A stretch of DNA of 60,033 bases, from positions 1 to 60,033 of IMG/VR virus record IMGVR_UViG_3300030104_000540. One strand, given 5' to 3'. The stretch is from a virus. The position numbers and the translations under genes were made by a program. Positions 1 through 60,033 of the stretch are shown here, piece after piece (the first letter of the stretch is position 1; each line of letters starts with the position of its first letter). Under the pieces are notes generated by a model. That model was not told where the DNA came from. It ran no database searches and saw only the letters and a program-made list of their open reading frames with translations.

Positions 1-28
1 GGGGTACGTTACTTATGAGATACGGCAT
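1..28 (-). CDS. 5' fragment of a second copy of the conserved 232-aa gene
   Basis: Reading leftward, these bases start ATG and encode MPYLISNVP before running off the window edge. The same codons open the complete gene at 55749-56447. The start codon overlaps the stop of the neighbouring mini-gene (TAATG), exactly as in the right-hand copy. Because it lies within a 75-bp perfect repeat, it is either the beginning of a real second copy or the same gene seen again across a circular junction. Confidence 0.5.
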
Positions 29-75
29 TATCTACGTCTAGCAGCTCCACCTCTAGCATAGCCTTTTTTCTTTTT
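1..75. repeat. 75-bp perfect direct repeat, left copy
   Basis: Identical base for base to 56420-56494; position 76 is the first mismatch (g here, a there). Weaker similarity continues through the mini-gene. The repeat starts exactly at the window edge, which is what an assembly breakpoint, or the overlap of a circular genome, would give. Confidence 0.95.
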
Positions 76-156
76 GCCTATGCCGCCACCCATCATCTTC
101 TTAGGTTTCATTGCTCCTCCACGAGCCATTCCTTTTTTCTTCTTGTGCATTGCCAT
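28..156 (-). CDS. 42-aa Gly/Lys/Arg-rich mini-protein (KKKGYARGG type)
   Basis: Start ATG at 156; the stop overlaps the next start downstream as TAATG. The protein is almost only K, R, G, M and A and ends KKKKGYARGGAARRR. A close paralogue is encoded at 56447-56578. The same KKKKGYA-x-GG motif occurs in the 3081-3362 protein. Such short basic tags are common in marine podovirus virion-linked genes, but their role is unknown. Nucleic-acid or capsid binding is a guess from charge alone. Translational overlap and conservation of the paralogue support a real gene. Confidence 0.7.
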   Translation of the reverse strand: MAMHKKKKGMARGGAMKPKKMMGGGIGKKKKGYARGGAARRR

Positions 157-160
157 ATTT

Positions 161-565
161 TTATTTCCTTTTATTCATAATTTGTAATCCTTGTTTACCA
201 AACCTGTAACCAAAGGATGCACCAATGCTAATGTATAAACAGTTAGCAAACCAAGAAGGTGTGTTCGCATTTAAGAAATCAAACCCTTCTTTAACATATG
301 GTTGAGTCCAAGGTAGGAAACATCCAACCAATATACCACCAAAAATTATTGTCCAAAATTCATCTTTCCACGAACCTGCCATTTGTGCTGTAAGGCTCTG
401 TTCCATAAGCATAGAAGATGTAGCTTCAGTTTCGTATACTTTAGCTTCAGCTTTAGCACGAGCAACTTTTACTTCTGTCTCTGCTTTTTGTTTTTCCATC
501 TTGCCTTGCAGATAAGTTCCTGCTATATTGGCAATAGGACTTATGAGTGATGATAGTCCTAACAT
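161..565 (-). CDS. Holin-like membrane protein (3-TM gene-transfer-agent holin type)
   Basis: 134 aa. A hydrophobic N-terminus (about residues 3-19) is followed by a charged, helical K/E/A segment (about 22-50). Two hydrophobic stretches come next, one with the WKDEFWTIIFGG motif (about 66-85) and one near 105-122. This order and the WKDEF motif resemble the 3-TM holin family (GTA_holin_3TM). Such proteins would permeabilise the inner membrane for endolysin release. It overlaps the upstream gene as TAATG. The lysozyme is far away at 54.4 kb in linear coordinates but about 2 kb away if the genome is circular. Other membrane roles are possible. Confidence 0.6.
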   Translation of the reverse strand: MLGLSSLISPIANIAGTYLQGKMEKQKAETEVKVARAKAEAKVYETEATSSMLMEQSLTAQMAGSWKDEFWTIIFGGILVGCFLPWTQPYVKEGFDFLNANTPSWFANCLYISIGASFGYRFGKQGLQIMNKRK

Positions 566-819
566 TATGTTTTCCTCGTTGCTTTTCTTTTTCTACCTGA
601 TGCAGTTACAGACCATTTAACTTTCTTAGGTCCTGTTTTCTTTCTTGCTTCTGCTTTACTTATTCTTCCAGCTACAGCTTTAGGTCTACAAGCAGGGTAA
701 GGTCTTTTCTTTTTTTCGCTTCCTGACCTTCCACATTTCTTGCCTGTCTTAACATCTCGCCAATCTTCTTTGAACCATTTAGTTAAGCCACCTGTAGGCT
801 TTCTAGGCATAAGTGCCAC
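565..819 (-). CDS. Small basic conserved marine-virus protein (DUF5872-like N-terminal motif)
   Basis: 84 aa, rich in K and R. It carries GLTKWFKEDWRDVKTGKKCG and then a YPACRP motif, a tryptophan/cysteine signature seen in marine phages and some algal viruses in DUF5872-like proteins. Two cysteines flank the basic core and could bind metal. Function is unknown. It overlaps the upstream gene, whose C-terminus carries the other half of the DUF5872-type signature, which suggests the two products act together or derive from a split fusion. Confidence 0.65.
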   Translation of the reverse strand: MALMPRKPTGGLTKWFKEDWRDVKTGKKCGRSGSEKKKRPYPACRPKAVAGRISKAEARKKTGPKKVKWSVTASGRKRKATRKT

Positions 820-1342
820 CCCTAGCTTTATACGTTTTTACTAGCCATGCATTTGCATATGCTGATGGATATACTTTAAATTTTCTTTTTGCTTCTGCTT
901 TGACTGTAGAGTACAAAGATTTATTTTTAGGAACTGGTCCTGCACCTTTTTTCTTTTTTGTAATAAGTGCTCCGGGTTTAGCTTTAATAACTTTACTTAA
1001 AGTTTTAGCTTGACCTGCGTGAGCTTTACTTGCTTTTGTTAATTTACCTGCAACTTTTTTTATTGTTGACTTTGCTTTTGTTGCAAGTGTTCCTGCTTTA
1101 GCTTTGATGACACCTCTACCTATCAGTATATCTTTTTGTGTAGTCTTGCCGTCTCCACTTAAATCTGGAAAACCACCTCTACTAAAGCCTAAATGTTTCT
1201 GACCTTTTAAGCCTTCTACACCAAACACTTCTATAGCCATCTCTAATACTTTTCTTTTTTGTGTTGCAGTTAAGTTTCCAAATATTCTTGGTTGCTTTGC
1301 CATTCTAGCAGATAATCCTTTTCCTGATCTAGGTTTAGCCAT
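803..1342 (-). CDS. Basic protein with EF-hand-like loop and C-terminal DUF5872-type motif
   Basis: 179 aa. The N-terminal third contains DLSGDGKTTQKD, which fits a 12-residue EF-hand or dockerin-type calcium loop (acidic or polar at positions 1, 3, 5, 9 and 12). A long Lys/Ala-rich low-complexity linker follows, then a C-terminal motif VYPSAYANAWLVKTYK with GGTY, typical of DUF5872-like proteins. Function unknown. The basic linker may bind DNA or anionic surfaces; this is inference. It is translated as part of the leftward operon. Confidence 0.65.
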   Translation of the reverse strand: MAKPRSGKGLSARMAKQPRIFGNLTATQKRKVLEMAIEVFGVEGLKGQKHLGFSRGGFPDLSGDGKTTQKDILIGRGVIKAKAGTLATKAKSTIKKVAGKLTKASKAHAGQAKTLSKVIKAKPGALITKKKKGAGPVPKNKSLYSTVKAEAKRKFKVYPSAYANAWLVKTYKARGGTYA

Positions 1343-1353
1343 TTAACATCTCC

Positions 1354-1626
1354 TTACCATTTTACTTTATGTGACCAATACCTTGCACTAAATATATCAG
1401 GCTTGGCATCTTGTGCATTATGACGAGCATAGTAAGATTTCTTACGAGCTTTATCTTTTTTACTTGTAGGATTTTTTCCTGCACCTTTTACTCCTTGTTG
1501 ACCAAAGCGAATAATTTTTTCCTTACCACCCTTACACGCTTTCACTACATGTGATTTTGTAGGATGGTCAGGTGTTCGCTTTGGTTTATTACAAGCCATT
1601 TTAGATTTGTCAAGTTTAGCTGCCAT
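1354..1626 (-). CDS. Small conserved basic protein (KARKKSYYARH / ARYWSHKVKW)
   Basis: 90 aa with two cysteines (in MACNKP and VKACKGG), the motif GQQGVKGAGKNP, a KARKKSYYARH helix and a tryptophan-rich C-terminus FSARYWSHKVKW. I recognise this as a recurrent small protein in marine phage genomes (DUF6321-like), with no established role. The run of conserved aromatic and basic residues suggests a folded nucleic-acid-binding domain rather than low-complexity tail material; that is inference. Confidence 0.65.
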   Translation of the reverse strand: MAAKLDKSKMACNKPKRTPDHPTKSHVVKACKGGKEKIIRFGQQGVKGAGKNPTSKKDKARKKSYYARHNAQDAKPDIFSARYWSHKVKW

Positions 1627-1628
1627 AA

Positions 1629-1760
1629 CTAACCTTGAATAAATATGTGATAAATAAGTAAAGCTATGATAAGTAATTTACCATAGTCTAAATCAAATTT
1701 AGTACCTTCACCAAATTTCTTTTCCCACATTTCAAATTTAATTTTTTCCCAATCAATCAT
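1629..1760 (-). CDS. 43-aa single-pass membrane mini-protein
   Basis: Starts MIDWEKIKFEMWEKKF, a charged amphipathic segment, and ends in one hydrophobic helix LLIIALLIYHIFI. Its ATG overlaps the stop of the upstream gene (ATGA), which indicates translational coupling and supports a real gene. A short soluble head plus one membrane span could be a small holin, antiholin or spanin accessory; the sequence does not decide. Confidence 0.6.
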   Translation of the reverse strand: MIDWEKIKFEMWEKKFGEGTKFDLDYGKLLIIALLIYHIFIQG

Positions 1761-1975
1761 GTTGGTTCTCCCTTAGTTCCTGTAGGGCTACCCATATATA
1801 CACATGTACTGTAACCATTTAAATATTGAGGGTCTTGTATTGTACTTGTTCTTACCTTATCTATATATTGATAGCACGTATCTTGTGATGTAAATGGAAA
1901 ATTTACCATTGGAAAATTTACCCATGTTGCACTATCTCCTAGTGCCCATAATATTGTTATAACCGGAATCCACAT
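1757..1975 (-). CDS. Small secreted or membrane-anchored protein with two cysteines
   Basis: 72 aa. It has a hydrophobic N-terminus (WIPVITILWALG) and then a soluble part with a C-x3-Y and a C-V-Y cysteine motif. The next gene (1979-2170) has the same plan: a hydrophobic start, F-x5-TC, and a C-terminal YC. The two look like a diverged tandem pair. Disulphide-bonded periplasmic proteins in a lysis or superinfection-exclusion setting are plausible, but no family is recognised. Confidence 0.55.
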   Translation of the reverse strand: MWIPVITILWALGDSATWVNFPMVNFPFTSQDTCYQYIDKVRTSTIQDPQYLNGYSTCVYMGSPTGTKGEPT

Positions 1976-1978
1976 TTC

Positions 1979-2170
1979 TTAATCACCTTTCTGAGGAATG
2001 CAGTAAACTTTGAGGTAGACTTTATCACCTGCTTGTCTTTGGTGTAAGTCCTGTGCTCGTAGCTTCTGTGCATATCCAAGGCAAGTATCCAAATCATTGA
2101 AGTAGACATTTTCTTGTATCTCTGTTCCTTGTAGTAAGACGACTAACATCCAAACCATAGCTAGTGCCAC
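1979..2170 (-). CDS. Small secreted or membrane-anchored protein, likely paralogue of its neighbour
   Basis: 63 aa. A hydrophobic start (MALAMVWMLVVLLQG) could be a signal peptide or anchor. A polar domain follows with FNDLDTCLGYAQKLR and a terminal VYCIP. Spacing of the two cysteines and the aromatic residues resembles the 1757-1975 product. Its start overlaps the end of the 46-aa gene upstream by 10 nt. Function unknown. Confidence 0.55.
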   Translation of the reverse strand: MALAMVWMLVVLLQGTEIQENVYFNDLDTCLGYAQKLRAQDLHQRQAGDKVYLKVYCIPQKGD

Positions 2171-2301
2171 AAATTTGTGAGAGCATAATCATCAGCACAT
2201 CCACATATATCATTTAATAATCCCATTGCTACTGCGTATAATATAATAAATATGAAGAACGCACCTACTAGATATGTTATCCATTTAAATATGAGATACA
2301 T
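2161..2301 (-). CDS. 46-aa membrane mini-protein
   Basis: ATG at 2301, product MYLIFKWITYLVGAFF followed by more hydrophobic residues, then NDICGCADD and a short polar tail. One long transmembrane helix precedes a CGC motif. Overlapping coupling with the next gene supports translation. A promoter-like TTGACA-N17-TACAAT lies so close upstream that its transcript would begin at or just after this start, so that promoter would serve the genes beyond it. No family recognised. Confidence 0.5.
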   Translation of the reverse strand: MYLIFKWITYLVGAFFIFIILYAVAMGLLNDICGCADDYALTNLWH

Positions 2302-2328
2302 TGTACCACTGTATTTTTAAGATGTCAA
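2300..2328 (-). promoter_or_regulatory. Sigma70-like promoter, leftward (TTGACA-N17-TACAAT)
   Basis: The -35 is a perfect TTGACA (2323-2328 on the complement). The -10 TACAAT (2300-2305) matches five of six positions, and spacing is 17 nt. It would initiate near 2293 and transcribe the pair of small cysteine proteins and the holin-like gene. Confidence 0.45.
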
Positions 2329-2624
2329 TCACTAAATTGTTTTTTTATACTTCTAACTACACTTTTAATATCAAAAGGTTCTTTATTAGGTCTATATGGA
2401 CATTGATATTGTCTAGGGCAAGGTCCTGCATCATATGGTACATACTCTCTATACTGTGTATTGTTTGCACCTACAAAGACACATACTCTTTGATTGTTCC
2501 CTAGTATCTGACTTGCTAATCTACAAGTCGTCATCTTCACATTGTCTTCTTTTGCTGAAGCAGTTGGAAGTAATAGTAATATTAGTAGGATTAAACTGAC
2601 ATACTTATTAGCCACATCATCCAA
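2325..2624 (-). CDS. Secreted cysteine-containing small protein
   Basis: 99 aa with a convincing signal peptide: short charged start, hydrophobic core SLILLILLLLPTASA, and a likely cut after the second alanine. The mature part (about 78 aa) contains four cysteines (TTCRLA, RVCVF, GPCPRQYQCP), consistent with a disulphide-stabilised periplasmic protein. Its start overlaps the end of the upstream gene. No catalytic motif is visible. It may belong with the other small exported proteins in a lysis or envelope-modifying group. Confidence 0.65.
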   Translation of the reverse strand: MDDVANKYVSLILLILLLLPTASAKEDNVKMTTCRLASQILGNNQRVCVFVGANNTQYREYVPYDAGPCPRQYQCPYRPNKEPFDIKSVVRSIKKQFSD

Positions 2625-3070
2625 CCTAAACCACTTACACCTACTAAAGCCGCTAATCCCATAATAGTGTAATCTCTTATCTTACGTTGCTGTTCTTCTT
2701 TTGCGTAGATAGCCTTCTGTCTAGCTTTACGTAATCTACCTTCTTCTCTTAATAAATCATCCCATGCTTGTGTGCCATAGTGAGCTATTAAAAAATTTCT
2801 TAGTTCCTCTCTTTGTTTTTCTAGTTTCTTTTTAGCTGAAAAACTTTCTATTGCTACTTGCTCAATAGACCCATTAAATAATTTATCTAAAGCTGTAGGG
2901 TTATTAGCATTTCTATGTACATTATCTACATCACTAACTGCTGACATCCATTTGCCAAGCTCTGATGATAGGTCTTCAATTTCTTTGCCCACCATTATAG
3001 CTTTTTTTATAGCGTTATATGCTGTAGTCGCACCTGTAACGGCTGCTGACAATGTGATGGGGTCTATCAT
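2591..3070 (-). CDS. Tail-anchored coiled-coil protein, conserved in marine phages
   Basis: 159 aa. Starts MIDPITLSAAVTGATTAYNA, has a central charged helical region (KKLEKQREELRNFL, then GRLRKARQKAIYAKEEQQRKIRD) and ends in one membrane span (IMGLAALVGVSGLGWMMWLI). I recall similar proteins in pelagiphages and cyanophages, always without a known function. The C-terminal anchor is the reverse of an i-spanin. An internal virion or membrane-docking role is possible. Confidence 0.6.
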   Translation of the reverse strand: MIDPITLSAAVTGATTAYNAIKKAIMVGKEIEDLSSELGKWMSAVSDVDNVHRNANNPTALDKLFNGSIEQVAIESFSAKKKLEKQREELRNFLIAHYGTQAWDDLLREEGRLRKARQKAIYAKEEQQRKIRDYTIMGLAALVGVSGLGWMMWLISMSV

Positions 3071-3080
3071 GTAAGCAGTC

Positions 3081-3362
3081 CTACTTAGATTTTTTCAAAT
3101 TATTTGTTACTTTTCCACCTGCAAAATAGTTATGTGGTTTTGCAAAACCTGCACCACCTTTAGCGTACCCTTTTTTCTTTTTAGGCATTCCACCCATAGC
3201 CATTCCTTTTACAGAAATACCAAAGCGTTTAAGTCTTGACAAACCTTCGCTTCTTGTCATGTTACCTGCATTGATTGCATCTCTTACAAAGTTTTTTATA
3301 ATGCCTATTTCTTTTCTTGTAAGTTCGCTAGTAGGCAAATTCATAATATCTCTTTCTGCCAT
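3081..3362 (-). CDS. Small basic protein with KKKKGYAKGG motif
   Basis: 93 aa. The N-terminal 50 residues look like a helical domain (LTRKEIGIIKNFVRDAINAG, then MTRSEGLSRLKRFG). The C-terminus is Gly/Lys-rich with KKKKGYAKGG and YFAGGKVTNN. The tail motif recurs in the mini-genes at 28 and 56447, and an AGG-x-VT-x-N stretch recurs near the end of the 57812 product. A shared tail on unrelated heads suggests a docking or nucleic-acid-binding tag. Function otherwise unknown. Confidence 0.6.
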   Translation of the reverse strand: MAERDIMNLPTSELTRKEIGIIKNFVRDAINAGNMTRSEGLSRLKRFGISVKGMAMGGMPKKKKGYAKGGAGFAKPHNYFAGGKVTNNLKKSK

Positions 3363-3366
3363 GTCC

Positions 3367-4014
3367 TTAACCTCCTCTAAATACTTTTCTAACTTTTAAA
3401 AAGTCACTCACGCTAATGTCTACCTGAGAAAATGCTTTTCTTATTCTTTCTTTGTTCCCAGTATTAATGATAGCCATTAATTTAGTTCTTCTAGCAGGTG
3501 ATATGTCTTGATATTCTCTTTTCATTTTTAATGATAGACCATCTGCACCTTTTTTTGTTGGTAGTTTACTAGGAGCAGTCCTACTCATCTGCGTTTTTTT
3601 AGCAGCGCCCATAGATTGTCCTGTTGTTCCACCTCTTGGTGAGTCTGCACTCTTTGTTTTACCAATAGAACCCTTTGGTCTAGCTGACTGTGAGCCTGAA
3701 CCTGTAATTTTTTTGTCTGCTTTCTTTGGAGCACTTGTCTTCTTTGCTTTTTTTGCTGCAGTTCCCATTGATTTAGCTTTTGTCTTCTTACTAGGTGCTT
3801 TTTCCTGTGTAACTTTTTTACCACCAGCAATAGTTCCCTCACTCTTTGCCATCTTAGTACTTTTTCTAATACGTATAGGCAGATCATAAACCTTTTCACC
3901 TGCTTTTGCCGCAGCTTTTGATTTAGGTTTAACCTGATCGCTGTAACTTTTACCTTTTTTCTTTTTCTTTATCATACTACTGATAAGTTTTTTTACTAAC
4001 TTTGTTGCTGCCAT
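3367..4014 (-). CDS. Lys/Ala/Ser-rich basic protein with small C-terminal domain
   Basis: 215 aa. Starts MAATKLVKKLISSMIKKKKK, very like the start of the 53334 product (MVAIKLIKKLLVGTVKKTKK). About 100 residues of Lys/Ser/Gly low complexity follow. The last 50 residues are more ordered (REYQDISPARRTKLMAIIN and KAFSQVDISVSDFLKVRKVF). A GGGAG ribosome site precedes the ATG. Probably binds DNA or virion components by charge; no family is assigned. Confidence 0.6.
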   Translation of the reverse strand: MAATKLVKKLISSMIKKKKKGKSYSDQVKPKSKAAAKAGEKVYDLPIRIRKSTKMAKSEGTIAGGKKVTQEKAPSKKTKAKSMGTAAKKAKKTSAPKKADKKITGSGSQSARPKGSIGKTKSADSPRGGTTGQSMGAAKKTQMSRTAPSKLPTKKGADGLSLKMKREYQDISPARRTKLMAIINTGNKERIRKAFSQVDISVSDFLKVRKVFRGG

Positions 4015-4027: not shown

Positions 4028-4234
4028 CTATTCGTGCCAACCTTCGGCTTTCATGGCATTCTCTACACGAGATAGAGAATAACGCACTCCTGTATCTTTA
4101 TAAATGAGTGCTCTAATGTAATGTACAGAGGAATGAGGTACATGAACTGCACGTAAGTCTCCATATTTACGTAAAGATTTGTACGTGTCTGACAAAATGT
4201 CATCCGTATATGTTAGTTTTACTGATTTTTTCAT
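4028..4234 (-). CDS. Small conserved protein (MKKSVKL family), left copy
   Basis: 68 aa from the ATG at 4234; an in-frame TTG nine bases earlier is possible but less likely. A clear paralogue lies at 58459-58668. Both start MKKSVKL, carry a V/I-PHS motif, and end in a helix VENAMKAEGW or VEEAMRAEGW. Each is the first gene of a leftward transcript below a TTGACA/TATAAT promoter, and both share an almost identical start region (ATGAAAAAATCAG). A small DNA-binding or regulatory protein is plausible but not shown. Confidence 0.65.
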   Translation of the reverse strand: MKKSVKLTYTDDILSDTYKSLRKYGDLRAVHVPHSSVHYIRALIYKDTGVRYSLSRVENAMKAEGWHE

Positions 4235-4361: not shown

Positions 4362-4389
4362 ATTATACTCTTTTTACGCAGCTTGTCAA
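4362..4389 (-). promoter_or_regulatory. Consensus sigma70 promoter, leftward
   Basis: On the complement TTGACA (4384-4389), 16 nt, TATAAT (4362-4367): all twelve hexamer bases match consensus. It faces the 4234-28 gene cluster. In a circular genome it would drive the entire late operon. The second hub has an equivalent at 58803-58831. Confidence 0.85.
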
Positions 4390-4817
4390 CCCCAAAACAA
4401 TTAAATAAGTATAATTTTGTAGTATTTAGTGTGGCAATGTTGCAACTGTTGCATACTTGCAACACTATTTAATGGAGTTATCTATGTGGTTACCACTTCA
4501 ATTTCCTAATCTGTGTATTTATACAAGCATACGTACCCCATAGGGTGGCATGGCTGTCGCCCTCCCCCTCAATCGTGGGCAGACGTGTGCATAATGTCCA
4601 GCCACACGCAGGAATTGAGCCGACCAAATGCTCATTCTCTCTGAGAATGAAAGTGCAATCAGACCAAAACCGACCCCTAACACTCAAACGGAGTGTTAAA
4701 GGTGGAGTTGCCGAGCCAAATGACCATCACAAAGTGATGAATTGGCAAAATTGCCGTTCAAACTACGTTTGGGAGTACAAAAAACCATACCCCCTCTTAA
4801 CAGCGAAGCTGTTACAA

Positions 4818-4831
4818 GTCCGATGTCGGAC
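4818..4831. repeat. Dispersed palindrome GTCCGA-TG-TCGGAC, copy 1
   Basis: Exact copy in the control region, preceded by AA. Two 6-bp half-sites around two bases, the form expected of a dimer-binding site. Confidence 0.85.
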
Positions 4832-4894: not shown

Positions 4895-5016
4895 TGACTC
4901 CGTTTGAACATTTTTTTATGGTTTCATTTGAAATGTTTTAAGCACCCTGTAACGAAGTGAAGGGTGTTAAAACCTTTCAATTAAATGAAACCAAAAAAAT
5001 GTAACAAACGGAGTCA
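4895..5016. promoter_or_regulatory. 122-nt long hairpin enclosing the ribosome site of the first early gene
   Basis: The outer arms are 12 bp and perfect (4895-4906 with 5005-5016). The next arm (4908-4929 with 4983-5002) pairs throughout except for a 2-nt bulge. The inner arm (about 4930-4948 with 4963-4980) pairs with one mismatch and one bulge. The loop carries AACGAAGTGA. The GGAG Shine-Dalgarno bases (5010-5013), six bases before the 5020 ATG, are paired with CTCC at 4898-4901, so in RNA this would hide the ribosome site. A role as a replication or cruciform element is also possible. Confidence 0.8.
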
Positions 5017-5019: not shown

Positions 5020-5643
5020 ATGAAAAATTCAACAACAACCACTTCCAAATTAAACAACGGTTTAATTCAAAACTTAGCTAAAGCTAAGTCAAATGCTGAA
5101 AAAGGTTCAATTCTCTCTAGAGAGAATACACGTCTACTGTCTCTTGAAAAGAGACAGTTTGAAGCCCAAACTATGTTTGGAGGTTTTTGGTTTTCACTTG
5201 GAAAGCTCATCTCTGATGAGTTGAATGCAAGTGGAAAGTTGAGACTTTCCACAGCTCAGCTTAAAAAGCTGAATATCACTAAAATTGAACGTCAAAGACG
5301 TTCAGATGCTAAACTTTTCTTTGAAAATTATGATGCTTTACAATCTCTTACAAAGAGATTTAATAACGTATCAGCTTTGCTGAAAGAATTTAATAAACAG
5401 AACTCAAAGAGTTCTGAAACATCTACTAAAGTAGATGAAAAGTCATCTTCTAAAGAAGATGTTAAGTCCGATGTCGGACAAAGTGATAACAACGAAGTTG
5501 TTAAAGTAGGTACTTTTCAAGTACCTAATGTAAAGCAAATGGCTGAAGCCATTGTAATGCAAGCCATTGAAAATGGCTTAGAAGTTAAAGAGCTAAAAGC
5601 TCTTAACGCTGAAATTGCTAACCAAATCAAGGCTTTAGCTTAA
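5020..5643 (+). CDS. First early protein, 207 aa, gene composed of hairpins
   Basis: Unrecognised. The product is polar and helical: a basic N-terminal half (LSLEKRQFEAQTMFGGFWFS, then KKLNITKIERQRRSDAKLFF), a Ser/Lys/Asp-rich linker (about residues 125-155) and a C-terminal helical pair (VKQMAEAIVMQAIENG, then LKALNAEIANQIKAL). It is the first gene of the rightward transcript, where phages usually place host-takeover or anti-defence functions. The gene is most unusual at the DNA level: about twenty adjacent stem-loops fill it, nine of them back to back in 5398-5607. Some are in frame with the loop as a GAA codon (for example NNEVV and AIENG). The rightward gene at 59273 sits in the equivalent place and has a similar size and layout, but homology is uncertain. 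Confidence 0.75.
   Translation: MKNSTTTTSKLNNGLIQNLAKAKSNAEKGSILSRENTRLLSLEKRQFEAQTMFGGFWFSLGKLISDELNASGKLRLSTAQLKKLNITKIERQRRSDAKLFFENYDALQSLTKRFNNVSALLKEFNKQNSKSSETSTKVDEKSSSKEDVKSDVGQSDNNEVVKVGTFQVPNVKQMAEAIVMQAIENGLEVKELKALNAEIANQIKALA
5466..5479. repeat. Dispersed palindrome GTCCGA-TG-TCGGAC, copy 2
   Basis: Exact copy inside the 5020 gene, encoding part of the linker (KSDVGQ). It is one of nine consecutive hairpins there. Confidence 0.85.
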
Positions 5644-6023: not shown

Positions 6024-6037
6024 GTCCGATGTCGGTC
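6024..6037. repeat. Dispersed palindrome, copy 3 (one mismatch)
   Basis: GTCCGA-TG-TCGGTC; the final arm has T for A. It lies seven bases after the stop of the 5727 gene and just before a terminator. Confidence 0.7.
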
Positions 6038-6048
6038 TTAACAGCAAG

Positions 6049-6078
6049 GCTGTAGCAGTAATGTTACAGCCTTTTTTT
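6049..6078 (+). terminator. Rho-independent terminator
   Basis: Stem GGCTGTA / TACAGCC around a 10-nt loop, followed by seven T. It ends the transcript after the 5727 gene. An alternative AACAGC-AAG-GCTGT hairpin overlaps its left arm and could compete with it. Confidence 0.75.
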
Positions 6079-6101
6079 ATGCCTAAAGAAAGGATACCAT
6101 T

Positions 6102-6305: not shown

Positions 6306-6314
6306 TAATATAAC

Positions 6315-6354
6315 AATAAATAATATATATCTATTTATAGATATATTATTTATT
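6315..6354. promoter_or_regulatory. Long AT-only intergenic hairpin
   Basis: A 16-bp stem made only of A, T and one C/G pair (left arm 6315-6332 with a 2-nt bulge, right arm 6339-6354) around a 6-nt loop. It lies between the membrane-protein gene and palindrome copy 4. Confidence 0.65.
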
Positions 6355-6372
6355 TTATATATTACTTATTAA

Positions 6373-6386
6373 GTCCGATGTCGGAC
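6373..6386. repeat. Dispersed palindrome GTCCGA-TG-TCGGAC, copy 4
   Basis: Exact copy, flanked by AA and ATAA, 20 bases before the start of the 6406 gene and just before its ribosome site. Confidence 0.85.
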
Positions 6387-6405
6387 ATAAACAGAAAGGG
6401 TTATT

Positions 6406-7081: not shown

Positions 7082-7095
7082 GTCCGATGTCGGAC
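7082..7095. repeat. Dispersed palindrome GTCCGA-TG-TCGGAC, copy 5
   Basis: Exact copy with the same AA / ATAA flanks, seven bases before the AAAGGAG ribosome site of the next gene. Confidence 0.85.
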
Positions 7096-8856: not shown

Positions 8857-9077
8857 TGGAAGAAGAAATTATTGACATGCTAAACATACAGCATAGAATA
8901 GAAGAGTTAATGCAAGAGGGCAAGGCATCAAAACTCAGAGGGTGGTCAGCGAGAGACATTTCAGATCGCATCACCTCTGAGTGGCGAGACGAGAAAGCAG
9001 GAGAGTATGCTTTCAAGTACATAGCCTACAATTATTCAACAGCTAAGTCCGACATCGGACATAAGAAAGGAGACTAA
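8856..9077 (+). CDS. Unknown small helical protein, 73 aa
   Basis: MEEEIIDMLNIQHRIEELMQ, then a basic segment (KASKLRGWSARDISDRI). The helix-rich charged sequence could fold as a small DNA-mimic or DNA-binding protein. The last codons (KSDIGHKKGD) are encoded by palindrome copy 6 and by the ribosome site of the next gene. Confidence 0.55.
   Translation: MEEEIIDMLNIQHRIEELMQEGKASKLRGWSARDISDRITSEWRDEKAGEYAFKYIAYNYSTAKSDIGHKKGD
9047..9060. repeat. Dispersed palindrome GTCCGA-CA-TCGGAC, copy 6 (opposite orientation)
   Basis: The two central bases are the complement of those in copies 1-5; the half-sites are identical. The same AA / ATAA flanks and a following AAAGGAG are kept, as in copies 4 and 5. 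Confidence 0.85.
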
Positions 9078-53723: not shown

Positions 53724-54092
53724 TTATTCATCCTCTACTTTTTTGGGTGGCATTAACATTACACCCCCTGAAGATTCTACTTGTATCTTCTCAGTTTTAA
53801 TTAAACCTGTACGATCTAACAGTTCTTTTGCTGCACTTAATTTATCTCTTGTGCCTAGTTCTGTTGGATCATCAATGCCACTTACCATAGCAAGTGCAGC
53901 TTTAGGTGCATTACTTGCCATGAACATTTGTGTTGCTTCTAATATCTCTTCTTTCAAAGCATTTATTATTTCTTGATTGTTTGTTGAAGGAGCATATCCT
54001 GCAATTATCTTTGCATCTTTAATATTACCATTTGCTTCTGCAAACAATGCATCAATAAATTTTTGTTGACGTTCTGTTAATTTTCTAGCCAC
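53724..54092 (-). CDS. Probable terminase small subunit, 122 aa
   Basis: LTERQQKFIDALFAEANGNI and KDAKIIAGYAPST give the helix-turn-helix opening typical of Terminase_2-like small subunits (LTxxQxxFxxxL, then AxxxAGY). A middle helix and a C-terminal KIQVESSGGVMLMPP tail are similar to those in other small subunits. GTG start overlapping the previous stop (TAGTG). Confidence 0.72.
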   Translation of the reverse strand: MARKLTERQQKFIDALFAEANGNIKDAKIIAGYAPSTNNQEIINALKEEILEATQMFMASNAPKAALAMVSGIDDPTELGTRDKLSAAKELLDRTGLIKTEKIQVESSGGVMLMPPKKVEDE

Positions 54093-54113
54093 TATCTAAA
54101 CAACCCGGCTTTT
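54090..54113. repeat. 24-bp repeat encoding a shared KAGLFR C-terminus, copy 2
   Basis: Identical to 26992-27015, ending the 69-aa protein just as copy 1 ends the 787-aa protein. Confidence 0.85.
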
Positions 54114-54301
54114 CTTAAATCTATATTGCCAAAAGATTTTTTAACAGCTTTTTTTATATTCTCTAGAGCTTTTTTGCTATCTATCTCTTTTAACCTTTGT
54201 TGATATGTAACATACTCATCCTTGTAAACACCACTTGGTGTCGTGTATGGTGTAGCTTTTATTTCTACTACTTTACTTTTATTTTTATCTTTATTACTCA
54301 T
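54092..54301 (-). CDS. Small basic protein ending in KAGLFR, 69 aa
   Basis: MSNKDKNKSKVVEIKATPYT, YKDEYVTYQQRLKEI, then a helical basic region and the terminal RKAGLFR shared with the 787-aa virion protein. A GGGAG site precedes the ATG. Unknown; the shared terminus hints that it joins the virion or meets the same partner. Confidence 0.55.
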   Translation of the reverse strand: MSNKDKNKSKVVEIKATPYTTPSGVYKDEYVTYQQRLKEIDSKKALENIKKAVKKSFGNIDLRKAGLFR

Positions 54302-54379
54302 ATTTAATAAACTCCCTTTTCCTAGGTTTAAAAAACTCTTTTAAGTTTTCTATATGTTTCTTTCTTATTCTTTGTTTTT

Positions 54380-54835
54380 TTAACTCAAGCCTACTGCTTT
54401 CATGCGAGATATAAGTCTGTCTGCTCTGTTTGTTACCTGTTTGTACCATCGTGAGTCCTGCATCTGATTTCCTGCTTCATTCCAATCTCCGTCTCTAATA
54501 GCTTGTATCATCTTTTTAAATTTAGATAGTCTAGGTCTACCCATGTTAAACATCATGTTAGCTATGATTAGCTGTACCTCTTCAGGTAGTTTATTCCAAT
54601 CATCAAATAGTTTTCTACATTCACCTATTGTAACTTTTATATCTTGTTCAAAGACTTCATTGACTCTTATCTCATCAATAGGTGTTCCTACTCCCATCAT
54701 ATATTCAGGATCATCTGGAGTTATAAGATGTCCTATACCAAATGTAGGTAAGCCAAGATGATCTAAATATACTTCGTATTTACATCCTTCATCTATTTTT
54801 AGTTCCTCTCTTAGTCTATCTATAAAAAATTCCAT
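54380..54835 (-). CDS. T4-type lysozyme (GH24 endolysin)
   Basis: 151 aa. The catalytic triad aligns with T4 lysozyme: Glu16 in KIDEGCKYEVYLDHLGLPTF, Asp25 and Thr31 (T4 Glu11, Asp20, Thr26). GIGHLITPDD, a central FEQDIKVTIGECRKL, MMFNMGRPRLSKFKKMIQ and DSRWYKQVTNRADRLISRM follow the family to the end. No signal peptide, so a holin is needed. It cuts peptidoglycan glycosidic bonds. Confidence 0.93.
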   Translation of the reverse strand: MEFFIDRLREELKIDEGCKYEVYLDHLGLPTFGIGHLITPDDPEYMMGVGTPIDEIRVNEVFEQDIKVTIGECRKLFDDWNKLPEEVQLIIANMMFNMGRPRLSKFKKMIQAIRDGDWNEAGNQMQDSRWYKQVTNRADRLISRMKAVGLS

Positions 54836-55083
54836 TACTCTTCCTTTTTATTATGTAATATAAATAAAGATTCTATCTTTTTTTCTGTTTCCTTTACAGC
54901 ACTTTCGGTTCTCACAGAACTTACAAAATTAGTTTGTATTTTTTCATTAGCACTTTTACAATCTTCTTCTAACTTATCTACATCTTTTCTTAATGTAGTT
55001 ACTTCAGTATGTAGCTTAACAGCTACAACTAAAGCTCCCAAGAAAAAAATTAATTGTTCCCAATACTGTAATATTCCTTCCAT
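54835..55083 (-). CDS. i-Spanin-like membrane-anchored coiled-coil protein, 82 aa
   Basis: One N-terminal transmembrane helix (YWEQLIFFLGALVVAVKL) and a periplasmic coiled coil (TTLRKDVDKLEEDCKSANEK, then VKETEKKIESLFIL). It overlaps the lysozyme start (TAATG). This arrangement is that of an i-spanin (Rz-like) in a lysis cassette; no Rz1-type lipoprotein partner is obvious. Confidence 0.62.
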   Translation of the reverse strand: MEGILQYWEQLIFFLGALVVAVKLHTEVTTLRKDVDKLEEDCKSANEKIQTNFVSSVRTESAVKETEKKIESLFILHNKKEE

Positions 55084-55090
55084 ACAAACA

Positions 55091-55261
55091 TCAATGTACC
55101 TTGTTTTTTTTATTCTTTCTAATAGCCTTATAATAGGCTTCGGTTAATTGTTTTAAATCTTCCTCTAATAAAAATATTATTTTCTTAGCTTCTAAAAGCT
55201 CTCTGCGTAAAGTTTCTTCAAATGTATCTTCGTGATTGTTCCATCCGTTTGCTTTAATCAT
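55091..55261 (-). CDS. Small helical protein, 56 aa
   Basis: MIKANGWNNHEDTFEETLRR, then a helix LLEAKKIIFLLEEDLKQLTE and a Lys/Asn-rich end. Its ATG overlaps the previous stop (ATGA) and it lies within the lysis cassette. No family recognised. Confidence 0.55.
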   Translation of the reverse strand: MIKANGWNNHEDTFEETLRRELLEAKKIIFLLEEDLKQLTEAYYKAIRKNKKNKVH

Positions 55262-55500
55262 TTTCTTCCACTTATTGCACTAAAACCGAAGTATGCTCCA
55301 ACCAGTCCACACATTGAAATATATTGTGTCATAAGAATACTTTCTGCTTCTGCGAGTCTGTCTGGGAATGCCAAAGTCAGGATAGTGGTAATACCCATAA
55401 GAATAATTAAAACCCATGCCATTCTCCTTTTGTTTACTTGATATGCCATCTTATCTGGAATTAAATCGTTACTATTATCAGACATTCTTTTTTCGTGCAT
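55258..55500 (-). CDS. Two-pass small membrane protein, holin candidate, 80 aa
   Basis: A polar N-terminus (about 22 residues) precedes two hydrophobic helices (MAWVLIILMGITTILTLAF and TQYISMCGLVGAYFGFSAI) separated by a charged DRLAEAE turn. The class II holin-like topology and proximity to the lysozyme make this a good holin candidate alongside the 161-565 product. Confidence 0.6.
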   Translation of the reverse strand: MHEKRMSDNSNDLIPDKMAYQVNKRRMAWVLIILMGITTILTLAFPDRLAEAESILMTQYISMCGLVGAYFGFSAISGRK

Positions 55501-55795
55501 TCTTTAAAGACAGTTTTGCTTTTTTAAATATAGATACTACTTCTGTCTTACCCATTACCTTTGCTCTTTGTTCTCCAACTGTGAGTATTTGAATTTTTCT
55601 TGCATATGGTTTATTGACTTTTTTAACCTTTGCAACTGTTGCTCTTGCGTCAGATGGAGTTGCGAACTTGATGCCAACAGTGTCTTTAGGATTTTCATCC
55701 GTGTATAAACGTCTTCCACTACCTTTCGGTTTTTTACCTGTACCAACTTTAGGGTCTCTTCTTTTTTTGTTTTTTATCATTATATAAATTGTCAA
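55478..55795 (-). CDS. Small basic conserved protein, 105 aa
   Basis: GTGKKPKGSGRRLYTDENPK and VGIKFATPSDARATVAKVKK are familiar from marine phage late or lysis regions. Starts at 55795 or at the internal ATG five codons later. Possibly RNA- or DNA-binding; no function known. It overlaps the gene on each side. Confidence 0.6.
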   Translation of the reverse strand: MTIYIMIKNKKRRDPKVGTGKKPKGSGRRLYTDENPKDTVGIKFATPSDARATVAKVKKVNKPYARKIQILTVGEQRAKVMGKTEVVSIFKKAKLSLKNARKKNV

Positions 55796-56447
55796 AGGTT
55801 ACGCTAGGGTCTAGGTAGCTTTCGTGGCTTTCTGCCGAGTGTGTCCACTGAGATGGTGTAAAGTCTGGAGCACCTTCCCCAGTAGCCCACAACGCAGGGC
55901 TTGTTGCACGGACTCTATTATTAGGTAAAGCAACAAAGTTTCCTGTCCACTTCCCTGCATCTAGCAGATATAATACATGCGACTGTTTATGTTGGGCAGG
56001 ATCATCTGCTATGTCGCTATCTGTGTAGTCCACTGTAAATAAGTATTTACCTTTGTAAAACTCTCCACCGATCTTACAAAGCCAAGGGCTTGAACTTACT
56101 CTATCCATCACGACTACACTGTGATTTCTTGATTCACAATCCCAAGGTTGTGCTAAATGATCTTCCATTGGTTCTGACCATTCATCTAGTGGAATGTCAG
56201 CTACGAGTGCTTGTATTGGCATCCTAGCCCACATTGCTCCACCATGTATATTTGTTTCAGGTCCATCTTCAAAGTCAGCTTCGCAACCTGTGAATACTAG
56301 TTGAAAGCTAAGTGACCTATCAGGTATTGTATTAACTGCAAATACCATCGCATGTAAAAACTCTCCGTGATACTGCTGATGGTTTGACGTAAACTCTTTC
56401 CGTACCCAACAATGAAAATGGGGTACGTTACTTATGAGATACGGCAT
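55749..56447 (-). CDS. Highly conserved marine-phage protein, 232 aa
   Basis: MPYLISNVPHFHCWVRKEFT, FAVNTIPDRSLSFQLVFTGC, DEWSEPMEDHLAQPWDCESR, CKIGGEFYKGKYLFTVDYTD and ALWATGEGAPDFTPSQWTHS are patterns that I recall as nearly unchanged in many marine podoviruses. Function unknown; a virion-associated enzyme or assembly protein would explain the strong conservation. The first nine codons lie within the 75-bp repeat, and the start overlaps the mini-gene stop. Confidence 0.72.
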   Translation of the reverse strand: MPYLISNVPHFHCWVRKEFTSNHQQYHGEFLHAMVFAVNTIPDRSLSFQLVFTGCEADFEDGPETNIHGGAMWARMPIQALVADIPLDEWSEPMEDHLAQPWDCESRNHSVVVMDRVSSSPWLCKIGGEFYKGKYLFTVDYTDSDIADDPAQHKQSHVLYLLDAGKWTGNFVALPNNRVRATSPALWATGEGAPDFTPSQWTHSAESHESYLDPSVTFDNLYNDKKQKKKRP

Positions 56448-56494
56448 TATCTACGTCTAGCAGCTCCACCTCTAGCATAGCCTTTTTTCTTTTT
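56420..56494. repeat. 75-bp perfect direct repeat, right copy
   Basis: Identical to 1-75. It covers the start of the 232-aa gene and the end of the KKKGYARGG mini-gene. Confidence 0.95.
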
Positions 56495-56578
56495 ACCCAT
56501 GCCACCACCCATCATTTTAGGCTTCATAGCACCACCTTTAGCCATACCTTTTTTCTTTTTACCTTTATGCATTGGCAT
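56447..56578 (-). CDS. 43-aa Gly/Lys/Arg-rich mini-protein, right copy
   Basis: MPMHKGKKKKGMAKGGAMKP and a KKKKGYARGG tail, paralogous to the 28-156 product (about three quarters of positions the same by eye). The upstream neighbours differ completely from those of the left copy. Confidence 0.7.
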   Translation of the reverse strand: MPMHKGKKKKGMAKGGAMKPKMMGGGMGKKKKGYARGGAARRR

Positions 56579-56592
56579 ATTACATTCTCCTA

Positions 56593-56850
56593 TTATGCTC
56601 TTGATCGAACCTTACCTGCAGTTTTTGTTCTTGCAAAAGATCGGTTTCTTCTTACAGATGAGATACCTAGATTATTCCATCTATTATCTCTTGGATTACC
56701 GTTTCTATGTGTAACATCTTTACCTGTAAGATTTACTCCACGTTTTTTCATAGCGTTACGTGCAGCATTCCGACTATCTCTACGTTTTACTTGTTCAGGT
56801 CTACTGTGATAATTATCATATTCTTTACGGTAATTTCTTTTATAAGCCAT
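56593..56850 (-). CDS. Small HNH-like protein, 85 aa
   Basis: A basic N-terminus (YRKEYDNYHSRPEQVKRRDS) leads to DVTHRNGNPRDNRWNNLGIS, which resembles the HNH/treble-clef nuclease turn with His, Asn, Gly-Asn and Asn-Leu positions. Without zinc cysteines it may be a degenerate HNH or a DNA-binding protein. Common in phages. Confidence 0.6.
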   Translation of the reverse strand: MAYKRNYRKEYDNYHSRPEQVKRRDSRNAARNAMKKRGVNLTGKDVTHRNGNPRDNRWNNLGISSVRRNRSFARTKTAGKVRSRA

Positions 56851-57812
56851 TAATTTTTCTTTAGATAGGCTATTAATTCTTTTTTACTTGGTCTTCTACC
56901 TAACTGTTTTTCTAATTTATTTTCAGCATCTATTTCTGCTAGTCTAACTTTTGCTGGACCTTTTCCACCTACTATAAGATTAAACATCCTACCACTACTA
57001 CCCCCATTAGTTTTCTTTTTACCATTAAATAATTTTGGTTTAGGTTTTGGTAGTACTATAGTTACTGAAGATTTAGATTTAGGTTTTGTTTTAGGTTGAG
57101 AGACTTTAGATTTTTTTGTTTTAATTAACTCTTTATCAGACTTTCTTTCTTTTTGACCACCTTTAGTGCTTCTAACTACTATTCCTTCAGTTATTGTGCT
57201 TTTTTCTATTTTAGAAGGTTTTAACGATGCTAATATTGCTCCAATAGCTATACCTATTCCACCTGCTCCTGCAACAGCAGTTAAAGGATGTTTTCTTATC
57301 ATACCTCTTATAGTATCTGTTATCTTTGACATACTTACATTAGGTGCTTTAGCTTTAACTTTTTTAGCTAGGTTGTTTATTTTTTGTTGAACACTTAATG
57401 TTTTAGTTTTAGTTACAGTTTTGGGTTTACCACCTGTAGCACTACCTACTTTAACATTTGGCTTAACACCTATTTTAGTTGTAGTTTTGGATTTACTACC
57501 TGTAGCACTACCTATTTTAGATTTACTACCTGTAGCACTACCTACTTTAACTTTTGTTTTAGTTGTAGTTTTATTTATTTTCATTCCGGGATTATTAGGA
57601 CCTCCGGGTGTTTTACCTAGTCCTGCAACAGATGATTTTTTTACGTTAAGAAGAGAAGTTAGTTTAACTTTGGATAACATATTTTTAGGCACAGCATTTT
57701 GAATTTTAAAATTTTTAATACCTAACCTTCTCATTTCTCCGGTAATCTCAGCTTTTGTTGCTCTTATATATAATGTGCTTCGACCCGGAATAGATACTGG
57801 ATATACTGCCAT
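56850..57812 (-). CDS. Lys/Ser/Thr-rich repetitive protein with a hydrophobic segment, 320 aa
   Basis: A folded N-terminus (YPVSIPGRSTLYIRATKAEI, then MRRLGIKNFKIQNAV) precedes Lys-rich low complexity with GSATG-x-K repeats (three copies, about residues 90-130). A Gly/Ala hydrophobic stretch (LTAVAGAGGIGIAIGAILAS) follows, and a terminal QLGRRPSKKELIAYLKK helix. An internal virion or DNA-binding protein would fit. Confidence 0.6.
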   Translation of the reverse strand: MAVYPVSIPGRSTLYIRATKAEITGEMRRLGIKNFKIQNAVPKNMLSKVKLTSLLNVKKSSVAGLGKTPGGPNNPGMKINKTTTKTKVKVGSATGSKSKIGSATGSKSKTTTKIGVKPNVKVGSATGGKPKTVTKTKTLSVQQKINNLAKKVKAKAPNVSMSKITDTIRGMIRKHPLTAVAGAGGIGIAIGAILASLKPSKIEKSTITEGIVVRSTKGGQKERKSDKELIKTKKSKVSQPKTKPKSKSSVTIVLPKPKPKLFNGKKKTNGGSSGRMFNLIVGGKGPAKVRLAEIDAENKLEKQLGRRPSKKELIAYLKKN

Positions 57813-58459
57813 TATTTACTCCTTGTTATGTTTTTATACGCTTTCATTCCTTTAGGACCACTCTCACGTAATGCTTTTAGTCCGGGATTGTCTGTAACAT
57901 TACCACCTGCTACATACATATGTTTCTTTCCACTTGACATACCACCATATGCCATTTTTTCTACATTCTTTTTAAGAATAGCACCACCTTTATTATTTCC
58001 AAATAGCTCTCCTTGGAACTTATTTTTAACAAATCTAGCACCGATTAAGGCAGCTTCACTTAAAGTTGGTATTTTTCTATCTGATGATCCATATTCACCT
58101 GATCTTAAAAGTTCATCTTTTATATCCTTTAAAGACCTTGCTGCTTCCCTTTTGTATTTATTAGGCTTACTAGGTGGTGCATCGACAGTTTTCTTAGGTG
58201 GATCACCTCTATCTTTTCTATTTAAACTTAGTGCTTGTTGTTTAATAACATCAAGTATTCTTTGTCTTCCACCACCTAGTTTTGTATCACCTACAATTTT
58301 ATCAAGAACTTGATTTAATTTCTTTTTTAAAACATTCTTTCTGCTTTTATTTGCATCATTACTAGGTTCTTCCTCTAATCTATAAAGTTCTGCTTGGGCA
58401 CTAACACCCATTTTCTCTAATTTTTTATCACTTGGTGTAGCTACTTGTTTCTGTGTCAT
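57812..58459 (-). CDS. Basic protein of unknown function, 215 aa
   Basis: MTQKQVATPSDKKLEKMGVS, then helices with AALIGARFVKNKFQGELFGN and a Gly-rich tail (MAYGGMSSGKKHMYVAGGNV) that carries the YAxGG-like tag seen in the left module. It overlaps neighbours at single bases. Unknown. Confidence 0.58.
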   Translation of the reverse strand: MTQKQVATPSDKKLEKMGVSAQAELYRLEEEPSNDANKSRKNVLKKKLNQVLDKIVGDTKLGGGRQRILDVIKQQALSLNRKDRGDPPKKTVDAPPSKPNKYKREAARSLKDIKDELLRSGEYGSSDRKIPTLSEAALIGARFVKNKFQGELFGNNKGGAILKKNVEKMAYGGMSSGKKHMYVAGGNVTDNPGLKALRESGPKGMKAYKNITRSK

Positions 58460-58668
58460 TATTCATCCCTTTCTTTCCAACCTTCAGCCCTCATTGCTTC
58501 CTCTACATGCTTTAAAGTAAATTTTCTACCGTAATGGGCTTCAACAGCCTGTCGCACGTAGAAGACATCACTATGAGGAATATGCAATCGGTCTAAGGAA
58601 TTAGTACGTATAGCATTATAAAATGCATCTAACACATTATCTGTATATAGTTTTACTGATTTTTTCAT
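58459..58668 (-). CDS. Small conserved protein (MKKSVKL family), right copy
   Basis: 69 aa from ATG at 58668, paralogue of the 4028-4234 product: MKKSVKLYTDN, LHIPHSDVFYVRQAVEAHYG and VEEAMRAEGW. First gene below the right consensus promoter, mirroring the left copy. Confidence 0.65.
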   Translation of the reverse strand: MKKSVKLYTDNVLDAFYNAIRTNSLDRLHIPHSDVFYVRQAVEAHYGRKFTLKHVEEAMRAEGWKERDE

Positions 58669-58802
58669 AAATGTCAAGTAATTATAGTACGTAGGGTTAA
58701 TATTTATTAAAAACCACTTAATATGTACATTTATAGTGTTTTTTATAACTTAATATATTAAACACTTATAGTGTTACACTGTTTGTGTTCTAGTTATACA
58801 TA

Positions 58803-58831
58803 ATTATAGCCGATTTTTAGTCATCTGTCAA
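58803..58831 (-). promoter_or_regulatory. Consensus sigma70 promoter, leftward
   Basis: TTGACA (58826-58831 on the complement), 17 nt, TATAAT (58803-58808): twelve of twelve bases and ideal spacing. It drives the 58668 gene and, with no strong terminator seen until past the capsid, could drive the whole late operon. Confidence 0.87.
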
Positions 58832-59097
58832 GAAAAAAATTAAAATACTTTACTTTTAGTGTTATCACTTGCCTTTGTGGTTTACAATGCATTTTCCTAA
58901 TCTGTTGCAGTGTACATATACGTAACGTGTACGTGGGGGGTGGCAGTGGCATGGGGTGTGTATGAGCCGATAGTTAGGTAGGTAGCTGTAAAAATAGCAT
59001 TTTTTAGACATATTTAGTGCTAAATAGACGTATTATTAGGATTATAGGTTAACTGTTAGTGTATCAATTGCTTTTTATACACTGTTTTTAATGAATG

Positions 59098-59114
59098 GGT
59101 TAGAAATTCTAACC
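59098..59114. repeat. 17-bp palindrome GGTTAGAAATTCTAACC, copy 1
   Basis: Two 8-bp half-sites around one base, 80 bases before the rightward promoter. The same 17 bases occur at 59686-59702. Confidence 0.8.
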
Positions 59115-59193
59115 GAATTATGCAATGTAGGTGTATAACATATCGTCTGTAAGCTATATATACACCCATATTTAAAAAAATATTATTATTAAG

Positions 59194-59223
59194 TTGACTT
59201 TGTTTTATTTTTCTGTGCATAAT
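59194..59223 (+). promoter_or_regulatory. Sigma70-like promoter for the last gene
   Basis: TTGACT (59194-59199), 18 nt, CATAAT (59218-59223): ten of twelve bases. It would start a transcript about 40 bases before the 59273 ATG. Confidence 0.5.
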
Positions 59224-59272
59224 ACAGTTATTGATAGGCAATCATGCCATCATGTATAACAAAGGAATTGTT

Positions 59273-59917
59273 ATGTTAAATATTATTAAAGGTTTTGTAG
59301 CACCTAAAGCTACTCAAGAGCGTGAATCATTTACTATTGTTTCTAATTACTTTAATTCATTGGATACAATTAGAGGGAATGAGGAACATTTTATTTATGA
59401 AGGCAATCTTATTAATTCTATTAAGAATGTTAAAGGTAAGAAAAAAGAAAAGAGAATGAATGATTTAAACCTTTATAAATATACTAAATATGAAAGGCAT
59501 TACTTAGGTAAGATTGCCAACAATAAAAAAGCATTTTTGGCTTATATTGCTAGTTATCCAACGGATACAAGGCTACCTAGTTTTGAGACTATTTATAATA
59601 ATAGTGTTAAAGAATATGACGAAAATGGTAAGAAGAAACCTTCTAACCCAATTATGACAGGTGAGAAGAATACACCTAAAAATCAGGTTAGAAATTCTAA
59701 CCCAAAAGTTGACAAGTCAGAAGATAAGACAACAGTAGATTATAAAGATAATCATGAGACTTTAGAGGAAGCTGTTGAGACTTGTGTTAGTATGCTTTTA
59801 GATTTTGGTGCAACTGAAGCTGAGATTGCTAACCTAGTTATTAAGTCATTACAGAAAAGAAATAAAAAGTTAATGACTACATCAAATAAAAAGACAATAG
59901 CTTTTAAAGTAGCTTAA
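59273..59917 (+). CDS. Rightward early-type protein, 214 aa
   Basis: The ATG at 59273 follows AAAGGA by six bases. Charged, helical protein: MLNIIKGFVAPKATQERESF, NVKGKKKEKRMNDLNLYKYT, a low-complexity middle (KKKPSNPIMTGEKNTPKNQV) and a C-terminal helix pair (EEAVETCVSMLLDFGATEAE, then IANLVIKSLQKR). Size, polar linker, C-terminal helices and place next to a control region mirror the 5020 gene, so it may be its counterpart. Function unknown. Confidence 0.65.
   Translation: MLNIIKGFVAPKATQERESFTIVSNYFNSLDTIRGNEEHFIYEGNLINSIKNVKGKKKEKRMNDLNLYKYTKYERHYLGKIANNKKAFLAYIASYPTDTRLPSFETIYNNSVKEYDENGKKKPSNPIMTGEKNTPKNQVRNSNPKVDKSEDKTTVDYKDNHETLEEAVETCVSMLLDFGATEAEIANLVIKSLQKRNKKLMTTSNKKTIAFKVA
59686..59702. 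repeat. 17-bp palindrome GGTTAGAAATTCTAACC, copy 2
   Basis: Identical to copy 1 but inside the coding sequence of the 59273 gene (linker region). A partial TTCTAACC-CAATTATG stretch nearby (59641) resembles the right flank of copy 1 (TTCTAACCGAATTATG). Confidence 0.8.
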
Positions 59918-59928
59918 CTAATATATCA

Positions 59929-59962
59929 AAAGTGAGAGCAGAAATGTTCTCACTTTTTTTTT
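59929..59962 (+). terminator. Rho-independent terminator
   Basis: Stem AAGTGAGA / TCTCACTT around a 10-nt loop, followed by eight or more T, 12 bases after the stop of the 59273 gene. A textbook intrinsic terminator. Confidence 0.88.
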
Positions 59963-60033
59963 GTCTTTTTTTTTATTTTTTTTTTGTGCAACTACTATCA
60001 TGGGGGGGGTGAGATATGCTTTGCAACTACTAT
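59963..60033. other. Low-complexity window end
   Basis: Runs of T (eight to eleven), a run of eight or more G, and a GCAACTACTAT direct repeat (about 59988 and 60023). No gene. The homopolymers could be real or base-calling/assembly noise at a contig end. Confidence 0.6.

Follow-up and report, generated by a model that had tools for sequence, protein, structure and literature searches.

A second control region at the end of a marine HMO-2011-type phage contig, probably the variant hub of a co-occurring strain, and a candidate exchangeable regulatory module

The virus record IMGVR_UViG_3300030104_000540 (60,033 bases), analysed here in full and referred to as the window, is a marine phage contig classed as linear and without end repeats. 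It carries two versions of a control region, designated hub A (towards its start) and hub B (at its end), the features of which are listed in Table 1. The TerL and DnaB helicase proteins of the window were 81.1% and 72-76% identical, respectively, to those of HMO-2011/CRP-1, and its leftward late and rightward early modules met at a control region harbouring the MKKSVKL gene, such that the assignment to the HMO-2011 type made in an earlier note on this DNA was correct. In phages of this type, the hub forms the divergent control region.

The same order of landmarks was found on both sides: a Gly/Lys mini-gene, differing cargo genes, the MKKSVKL gene (the two alleles being 48% identical), a leftward TTGACA/TATAAT promoter-like site, the element TTTCCTAATCTGT...GGGTGGCA and a rightward gene. 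This order had been recognised previously and was confirmed, except that the two rightward genes belong to different families, that of hub A being saturated with hairpins and that of hub B not. The structural model of the MKKSVKL protein was of low confidence, with a mean predicted local distance difference test score of 69.5. Amongst 97 hubs of at least 800 bases, a leftward TTGAC...TATAAT-like site was present in 89, and the box CCTRATCTGT in 73, at a median of 310 bases from the MKKSVKL start and never in shuffled sequences. The composite of box and GGGTGGCA proved specific to hubs, but GGGTGGCA alone, which had been counted as a hub landmark, also occurs at 814, 7975 and 53745. The conserved frame of the hub consists of the leftward promoter, the MKKSVKL gene and the box with its GGGTGGCA-like tract.

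A repeat search of the window confirmed that bases 56420-56494 are an exact copy of bases 1-75, this being the sole long exact repeat. From base 76 onwards identity fell to 66 of 90 columns (73%), and since an identical run of 75 bases has a chance of approximately 8e-11 at 73% identity, the identical and the diverged stretches must have different causes. The repeat comprises the first 28 bases of a conserved gene encoding a 232-amino acid protein and the 3' end of the Gly/Lys mini-gene. The contig begins inside the 5' end of the 232-amino acid gene, only the first 28 bases of which are found at positions 1-28, so that its base 1 is not a natural gene boundary.

Relatives were gathered with this last shared gene and, separately, with each of the two hub genes. 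A 7.8-kb record (L086) was collinear with 53724-56596 and then with 1-5815 at 76-93% identity, and thus reads through the proposed closure, from the late operon into hub A. Another locus (L084, from a 23-kb record) was collinear with 55483-58004 and 58457-59977 at 77-86% identity, reading from the same 232-amino acid late-operon gene into hub B. Each branch of the fork hence exists as a separate genome with a single hub. The MKKSVKL gene was present as one copy in each of the six relatives having it, in each of 20 additional records (among which were four annotated isolates as well as several records of 51-59 kb) and in each of 10 annotated HMO-2011-group records; two copies were found in this contig only, as compared with 26 relative records and the 10 annotated ones. 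Inspection of hub architecture in related genomes likewise revealed a single hub in each, flanked by the leftward late operon on one side and the rightward early module on the other. The genome closed at the repeat measures 56,419 bp, just above the isolates (52.7-56.2 kb) and in keeping with the approximately 53-56 kb of the HMO-2011 group, as had been anticipated.

Taken together with these relatives, the sequence suggests that the second control region at the contig end is very probably another strain's version of a single-copy hub, joined on by the assembler. The real phage genome would close where 56420-56494 coincides with 1-75, at approximately 56,419 bp, and the assembly graph would fork at the shared 75-base node. 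The contig would start at this fork with hub A, circle the whole genome, reach the same node again and then continue for 3.5 kb into the hub, here hub B, that belongs to a co-occurring strain, and each real phage would carry one hub. Of the two proposals in the earlier note, one, in which the contig of a circularly closing genome runs on into an alternative hub, is strongly supported by the two branches and by the lack of any relative with two hubs; the other, two diverged switches in one phage, found no support.

De Bruijn graph assemblers that break at positions with multiple paths leave end repeats of maxK or maxK-1 (PMC10914622). The likeness to the present case lies in an exact end repeat at a branch due to strain variation, and the difference in that the contig here passed the fork once, and hence looks duplicated. 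An end repeat at an assembly break is consistent with overshoot but is not proof of it. Several points weigh against this interpretation: the fork was deduced from the sequence and its relatives, the repeat length of 75 does not equal the default k-mer length of common assemblers, and relatives at 76-93% identity show the architecture and not this very strain. Amongst all loci compared, a comparable start repeat was seen only in L091, in which bases 1-119 are repeated exactly within the contig (from 778 onwards), probably marking another assembly fork near a hub. Correcting the window as proposed would rid a public virus record of a false duplication, and would illustrate how strain mixtures can create one.

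The short repeat near the contig ends could also be read as the terminal direct repeat of a linear virion genome, with the last 3.5 kb an unrelated chimera. This is extremely improbable, given that the second copy sits 3.5 kb inside the right end, that L086 passes the junction without an end, and that the 3.5 kb constitute a genuine hub of these phages, which is correctly placed in L084.

To the right of the hubs, genome-specific dyads of 13-17 bp were found in 3-11 copies, most of them immediately ahead of early-gene ribosome sites. When a repeated dyad was defined as three or more copies with identical 6-base arms, such dyads were present in 28 of 53 right arms of hubs, as against none of 88 left arms and none of 53 shuffled sequences. 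A Shine-Dalgarno sequence and an ATG followed within 60 bp of 61% of dyads, compared with 23% of random positions, the median distance from dyad end to ATG being 20 bases. The hub gene usually has one dyad in its leader and a second within the gene or immediately behind it; in many hub genes of the family to which that of hub A belongs (family H), the inner dyad encodes an S(D/N)VG linker. In the window, the hub A dyad GTCCGATGTCGGAC or its reverse complement occurs five times and nowhere else in the contig (Table 1). The early gene under one of these dyads (6406-7047) encodes a Gene product 88-like protein (PF17338).

The type of dyad followed the type of hub gene. At least three GTCC..GGAC sites were found in 18 of 19 hubs of family H and in none of 40 other hubs; phages with family H hubs had 4-7 such sites, which were near-uniform within a genome but differed between genomes. 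The exception, L177, is weakly related and has a dyad of its own, GTTCGA-N3-TCGAAC, in eight copies. Other hub types also had their own dyads, namely GTCTGA-N3-TCAGAC (9 copies), GTCCCA-N3-TGGGAC (11), GTAGCA-N2-TGCTAC (10), GTAATC-N3-GATTAC (8), GTCACT-N-AGTGAC (7), TGTCAA-N3-TTGACA (9) and GTGGTA-N2-TACCAC (6). Overall, dyads co-occurred with a gene in the hub slot (26/32 vs 2/21, p = 2e-7). Hub gene type, dyad type and dyad position are thus associated, and the description of the hub as hypervariable, correct in itself, can now be specified, in that hub gene and dyads vary together. In the early regions of L129, L143 and L170, hairpins containing ACTTTAGTGAAAGT and a TATACT-like box were additionally seen approximately 40-55 bases upstream of the GTCC..GGAC dyads, forming a composite intergenic element.

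The hub B dyad, GGTTAGAAATTCTAACC, occurs twice and is absent from the rest of the contig, and its core is found twice at early genes of L099, a B-like relative. This indicates, independently, that hub B is foreign to the early genes of this contig; were the contig an overshoot, the path through hub B would be expected to lead into other early genes with GGTTAGAANTTCTAACC sites. These observations bear on the two explanations in which both hubs belong to one phage population. In the first, both hubs are real and a single phage carries two diverged control regions, acquired through duplication or capture of a second hub; the deposited contig is indeed continuous and both hubs look intact. We regard this as very improbable, as no relative has two hubs, the start of the repeat coincides with the contig start inside a gene, the early region carries hub A dyads without hub B dyads, and an old duplicate would show even divergence rather than 75 identical bases followed by 73% identity. 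In the second, a single population swaps hubs A and B by recombination at the shared sequence, both junctions being real in sister genomes. The same assembly fork would be expected, and hub cores do look exchangeable between related phages. This too is highly unlikely: nothing at the fork, an ordinary gene boundary, points to a dedicated switch, the early region here lacks cognate sites for hub B, and the explanation departs from a strain mixture only in the speed of exchange.

Hub B was compared with L084. The control regions were alike, the leader dyad was replaced within conserved flanks, and the body of the hub gene differed (30% protein identity) until a conserved end; joint replacement of leader dyad and gene body would look like exchange of a specificity cassette. 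In L099, two kinds of dyad, GTCAAT-N3-ATTGAC and GTTAGAA-N-TTCTAAC, were observed approximately 2.4, 3.3 and 4.3 kb downstream of the hub, as if its hub had been swapped recently and the early sites were lagging behind. The gene for an HNH endonuclease-like protein amongst the hub B cargo adjoins the exchange point.

In the hub A region (4600-6400), 37 short perfect hairpins were counted, compared with 3.3 in shuffled sequences (largest 8). The dense stretch takes in the leader of hub A, the family H gene itself and the gene that follows, and hairpin density is raised also in the HMO-2011 and CRP-1 homologues; the long composite hairpin at the hub gene start is likewise found in HMO-2011 (L180) and CRP-1 (L182), in a like placement but with unrelated sequence. 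Family H genes exceeded their synonymous-codon shuffles in hairpins, with z of 5 to 11 in most members, and no such saturation was seen in hub B. Between hub A of the window and L086, stems changed less than other positions (9/293 vs 31/322, p = 0.0009) under a union mask, which replaced a biased single-sequence mask.

In the AlphaFold model of the hub A protein, the N-terminal domain is helical and predicted with confidence, the linker is disordered, and two helices make up the C-terminal part. Fold and sequence searches of the PDB, in which the hub A model and the profiles of hub A and MKKSVKL served as queries, returned no meaningful match. The sole strong match in viral libraries was S4S2E1, nameless in the tables, the 205 amino acids of which equal the length of the HMO-2011 hub protein.

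The association of hub gene and dyads suggests, with a slight balance in favour, that the hub is a putative immunity-like regulator gene with cognate operators. Its exchangeable core would be the rightward gene of approximately 200 amino acids, of a type matched to the genome-specific dyad, with dyads placed in the hub gene leader, inside or just after the hub gene, and just upstream of early-gene ribosome sites. The product of the rightward gene would bind these dyads and control both early transcription and its own synthesis, and different hub types would act as different immunity specificities. The MKKSVKL protein was considered as the dyad-specific factor and rejected as unlikely, given that it stays conserved while the dyads change. 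More broadly, it appears somewhat probable that HMO-2011-type marine phages possess a hypervariable immunity module, in which the hub regulator and dispersed early operators switch specificity together by cassette exchange, that many types coexist, and that the contig fork reflects two types meeting in one sample.

Some results count against such a switch. Pfam and PHROGs searches with both hub genes returned nothing useful, including no Pfam family; the AlphaFold model of hub A matched no DNA-binding fold; and no tyrosine integrase was detectable in the window, although one was found in 22 of 24 records searched, such that this phage seems to have lost its integrase. The prevalence of integrase, together with the integration of CRP-3 of the HMO-2011 group into tRNA-Met (PMC6918029), renders an immunity function plausible. 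Hubs without dyads also occur in integrase-bearing phages, hence integrase and dyads are not strictly coupled. Amongst the 23 other records searched, 22 have a tyrosine integrase, the exception being the record of L134, and in the L177 record (G027, 15754-16226) the integrase match fell into two parts lying in separate open frames, so that the gene may be broken.

It is also conceivable, if rather unlikely, that the dyads act not as DNA operators but at the RNA level, as translational operators or processing hairpins. Their position immediately ahead of Shine-Dalgarno sites would fit such a role, as would the predominance of one orientation in family H. Against this, L151 and L111 have dyad centres of either orientation, the N1-N2 spacers leave loops too small for a full stem, and the dyads have the symmetry that would be expected of sites for a dimer on DNA.

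The control regions of HMO-2011 and CRP-1/CRP-345 share with the window a MKKSVKL homologue, a related cis box, a noncoding leader and 5-6 GTCC..GGAC dyads, and in HMO-2011 and CRP-1 a long hairpin also precedes a rightward gene of approximately 205-208 amino acids. They differ in having a single copy of the region, and in dyad letters and hub gene sequence. In the immunity systems of phiC31 and mycobacteriophage L5, 18-30 repressor sites are dispersed across the genome (PMC4557955). The hub resembles these in that one phage regulator, here presumed, would act at many genome sites, and in that a given site recurs in the short intergenic regions of the early module; it differs in that its 3-11 sites lie within approximately 8 kb of the hub and upstream of Shine-Dalgarno sequences, and in that dyad type changes with the hub gene, the regulator being putative. 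L5 stoperators are asymmetric and the hub sites are symmetric dyads, so the latter do not correspond to stoperators. The literature searched on hairpins, promoters, operators and repressors of HMO-2011-type phages contained nothing on the hub region and no description of it as a regulatory module. On present sequence comparisons, the hub is apparently an undescribed, real and exchangeable control module, a probable variant of dispersed-operator phage regulation with predicted binding. A very abundant marine phage group would thereby have a conserved control region in which a regulator-like gene can be swapped and is accompanied by matching sites. At least one member of this group is known to integrate, and no described repressor was found in the literature searched. 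Superinfection immunity types in HMO-2011-type phages would become testable from sequence and, if the proposal is true, many immunity types would coexist in one of the most abundant phage groups of the ocean.

Table 1. Coordinates of the repeat, hub A and hub B features in the window.
Feature	Position	Strand	Remarks
75-base repeat, first copy	1..75	+	Probable assembly branch sequence; exact match to 56420-56494
Gly/Lys mini-gene, allele A	28..156	-	
Hub A cargo genes	161..4014	-	
MKKSVKL gene, allele A	4031..4234	-	
TTGACA-N16-TATAAT promoter-like site, hub A	4362..4389	-	Leftward; direct reading
Conserved cis element TTTCCTAATCTGT...GGGTGGCA, hub A	4502..4550	+	
Dyad GTCCGATGTCGGAC	4818..4831	+	Hub A gene leader
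Long composite hairpin	4895..5016	+	Directly upstream of hub A gene start; direct reading
Hub A rightward gene, family H	5020..5643	+	207 amino acids; hairpin-saturated coding sequence
Dyad GTCCGATGTCGGAC	5466..5479	+	Inside hub A gene, coding SDVG
Dyad	6373..6386	+	19 bp before ATG of GP88-like gene
Dyad	7082..7095	+	Upstream of early gene
Dyad, reverse-complement centre	9047..9060	+	18 bp before ATG at 9079
Conserved 232-amino acid late-operon gene	55749..56447	-	phrog_3704, annotated ferredoxin; last shared gene before branch
75-base repeat, second copy	56420..56494	+	Probable point of true continuation into base 76
Gly/Lys mini-gene, allele B	56447..56578	-	
Hub B cargo, HNH endonuclease-like protein	56593..56850	-	PF13392
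Hub B cargo, two hypothetical genes	56850..58459	-	Homologous in L084
MKKSVKL gene, allele B	58462..58668	-	
TTGACA-N18-TATAAT promoter-like site, hub B	58803..58832	-	Leftward; direct reading
Conserved cis element TTTCCTAATCTGT...GGGTGGCA, hub B	58893..58945	+	
Dyad GGTTAGAAATTCTAACC	59098..59114	+	Hub B gene leader
Hub B rightward gene, MLNIIKGFV family	59273..59917	+	214 amino acids
Dyad GGTTAGAAATTCTAACC	59686..59702	+	Inside hub B gene

No tRNA was found in the window, and a near-identity DNA search with its last 10 kb gave no match amongst annotated phages. The contig end (59977-60033) comprises poly-T, a run of eight G and two copies of GCAACTACTAT, and is likely a low-complexity assembly stop.

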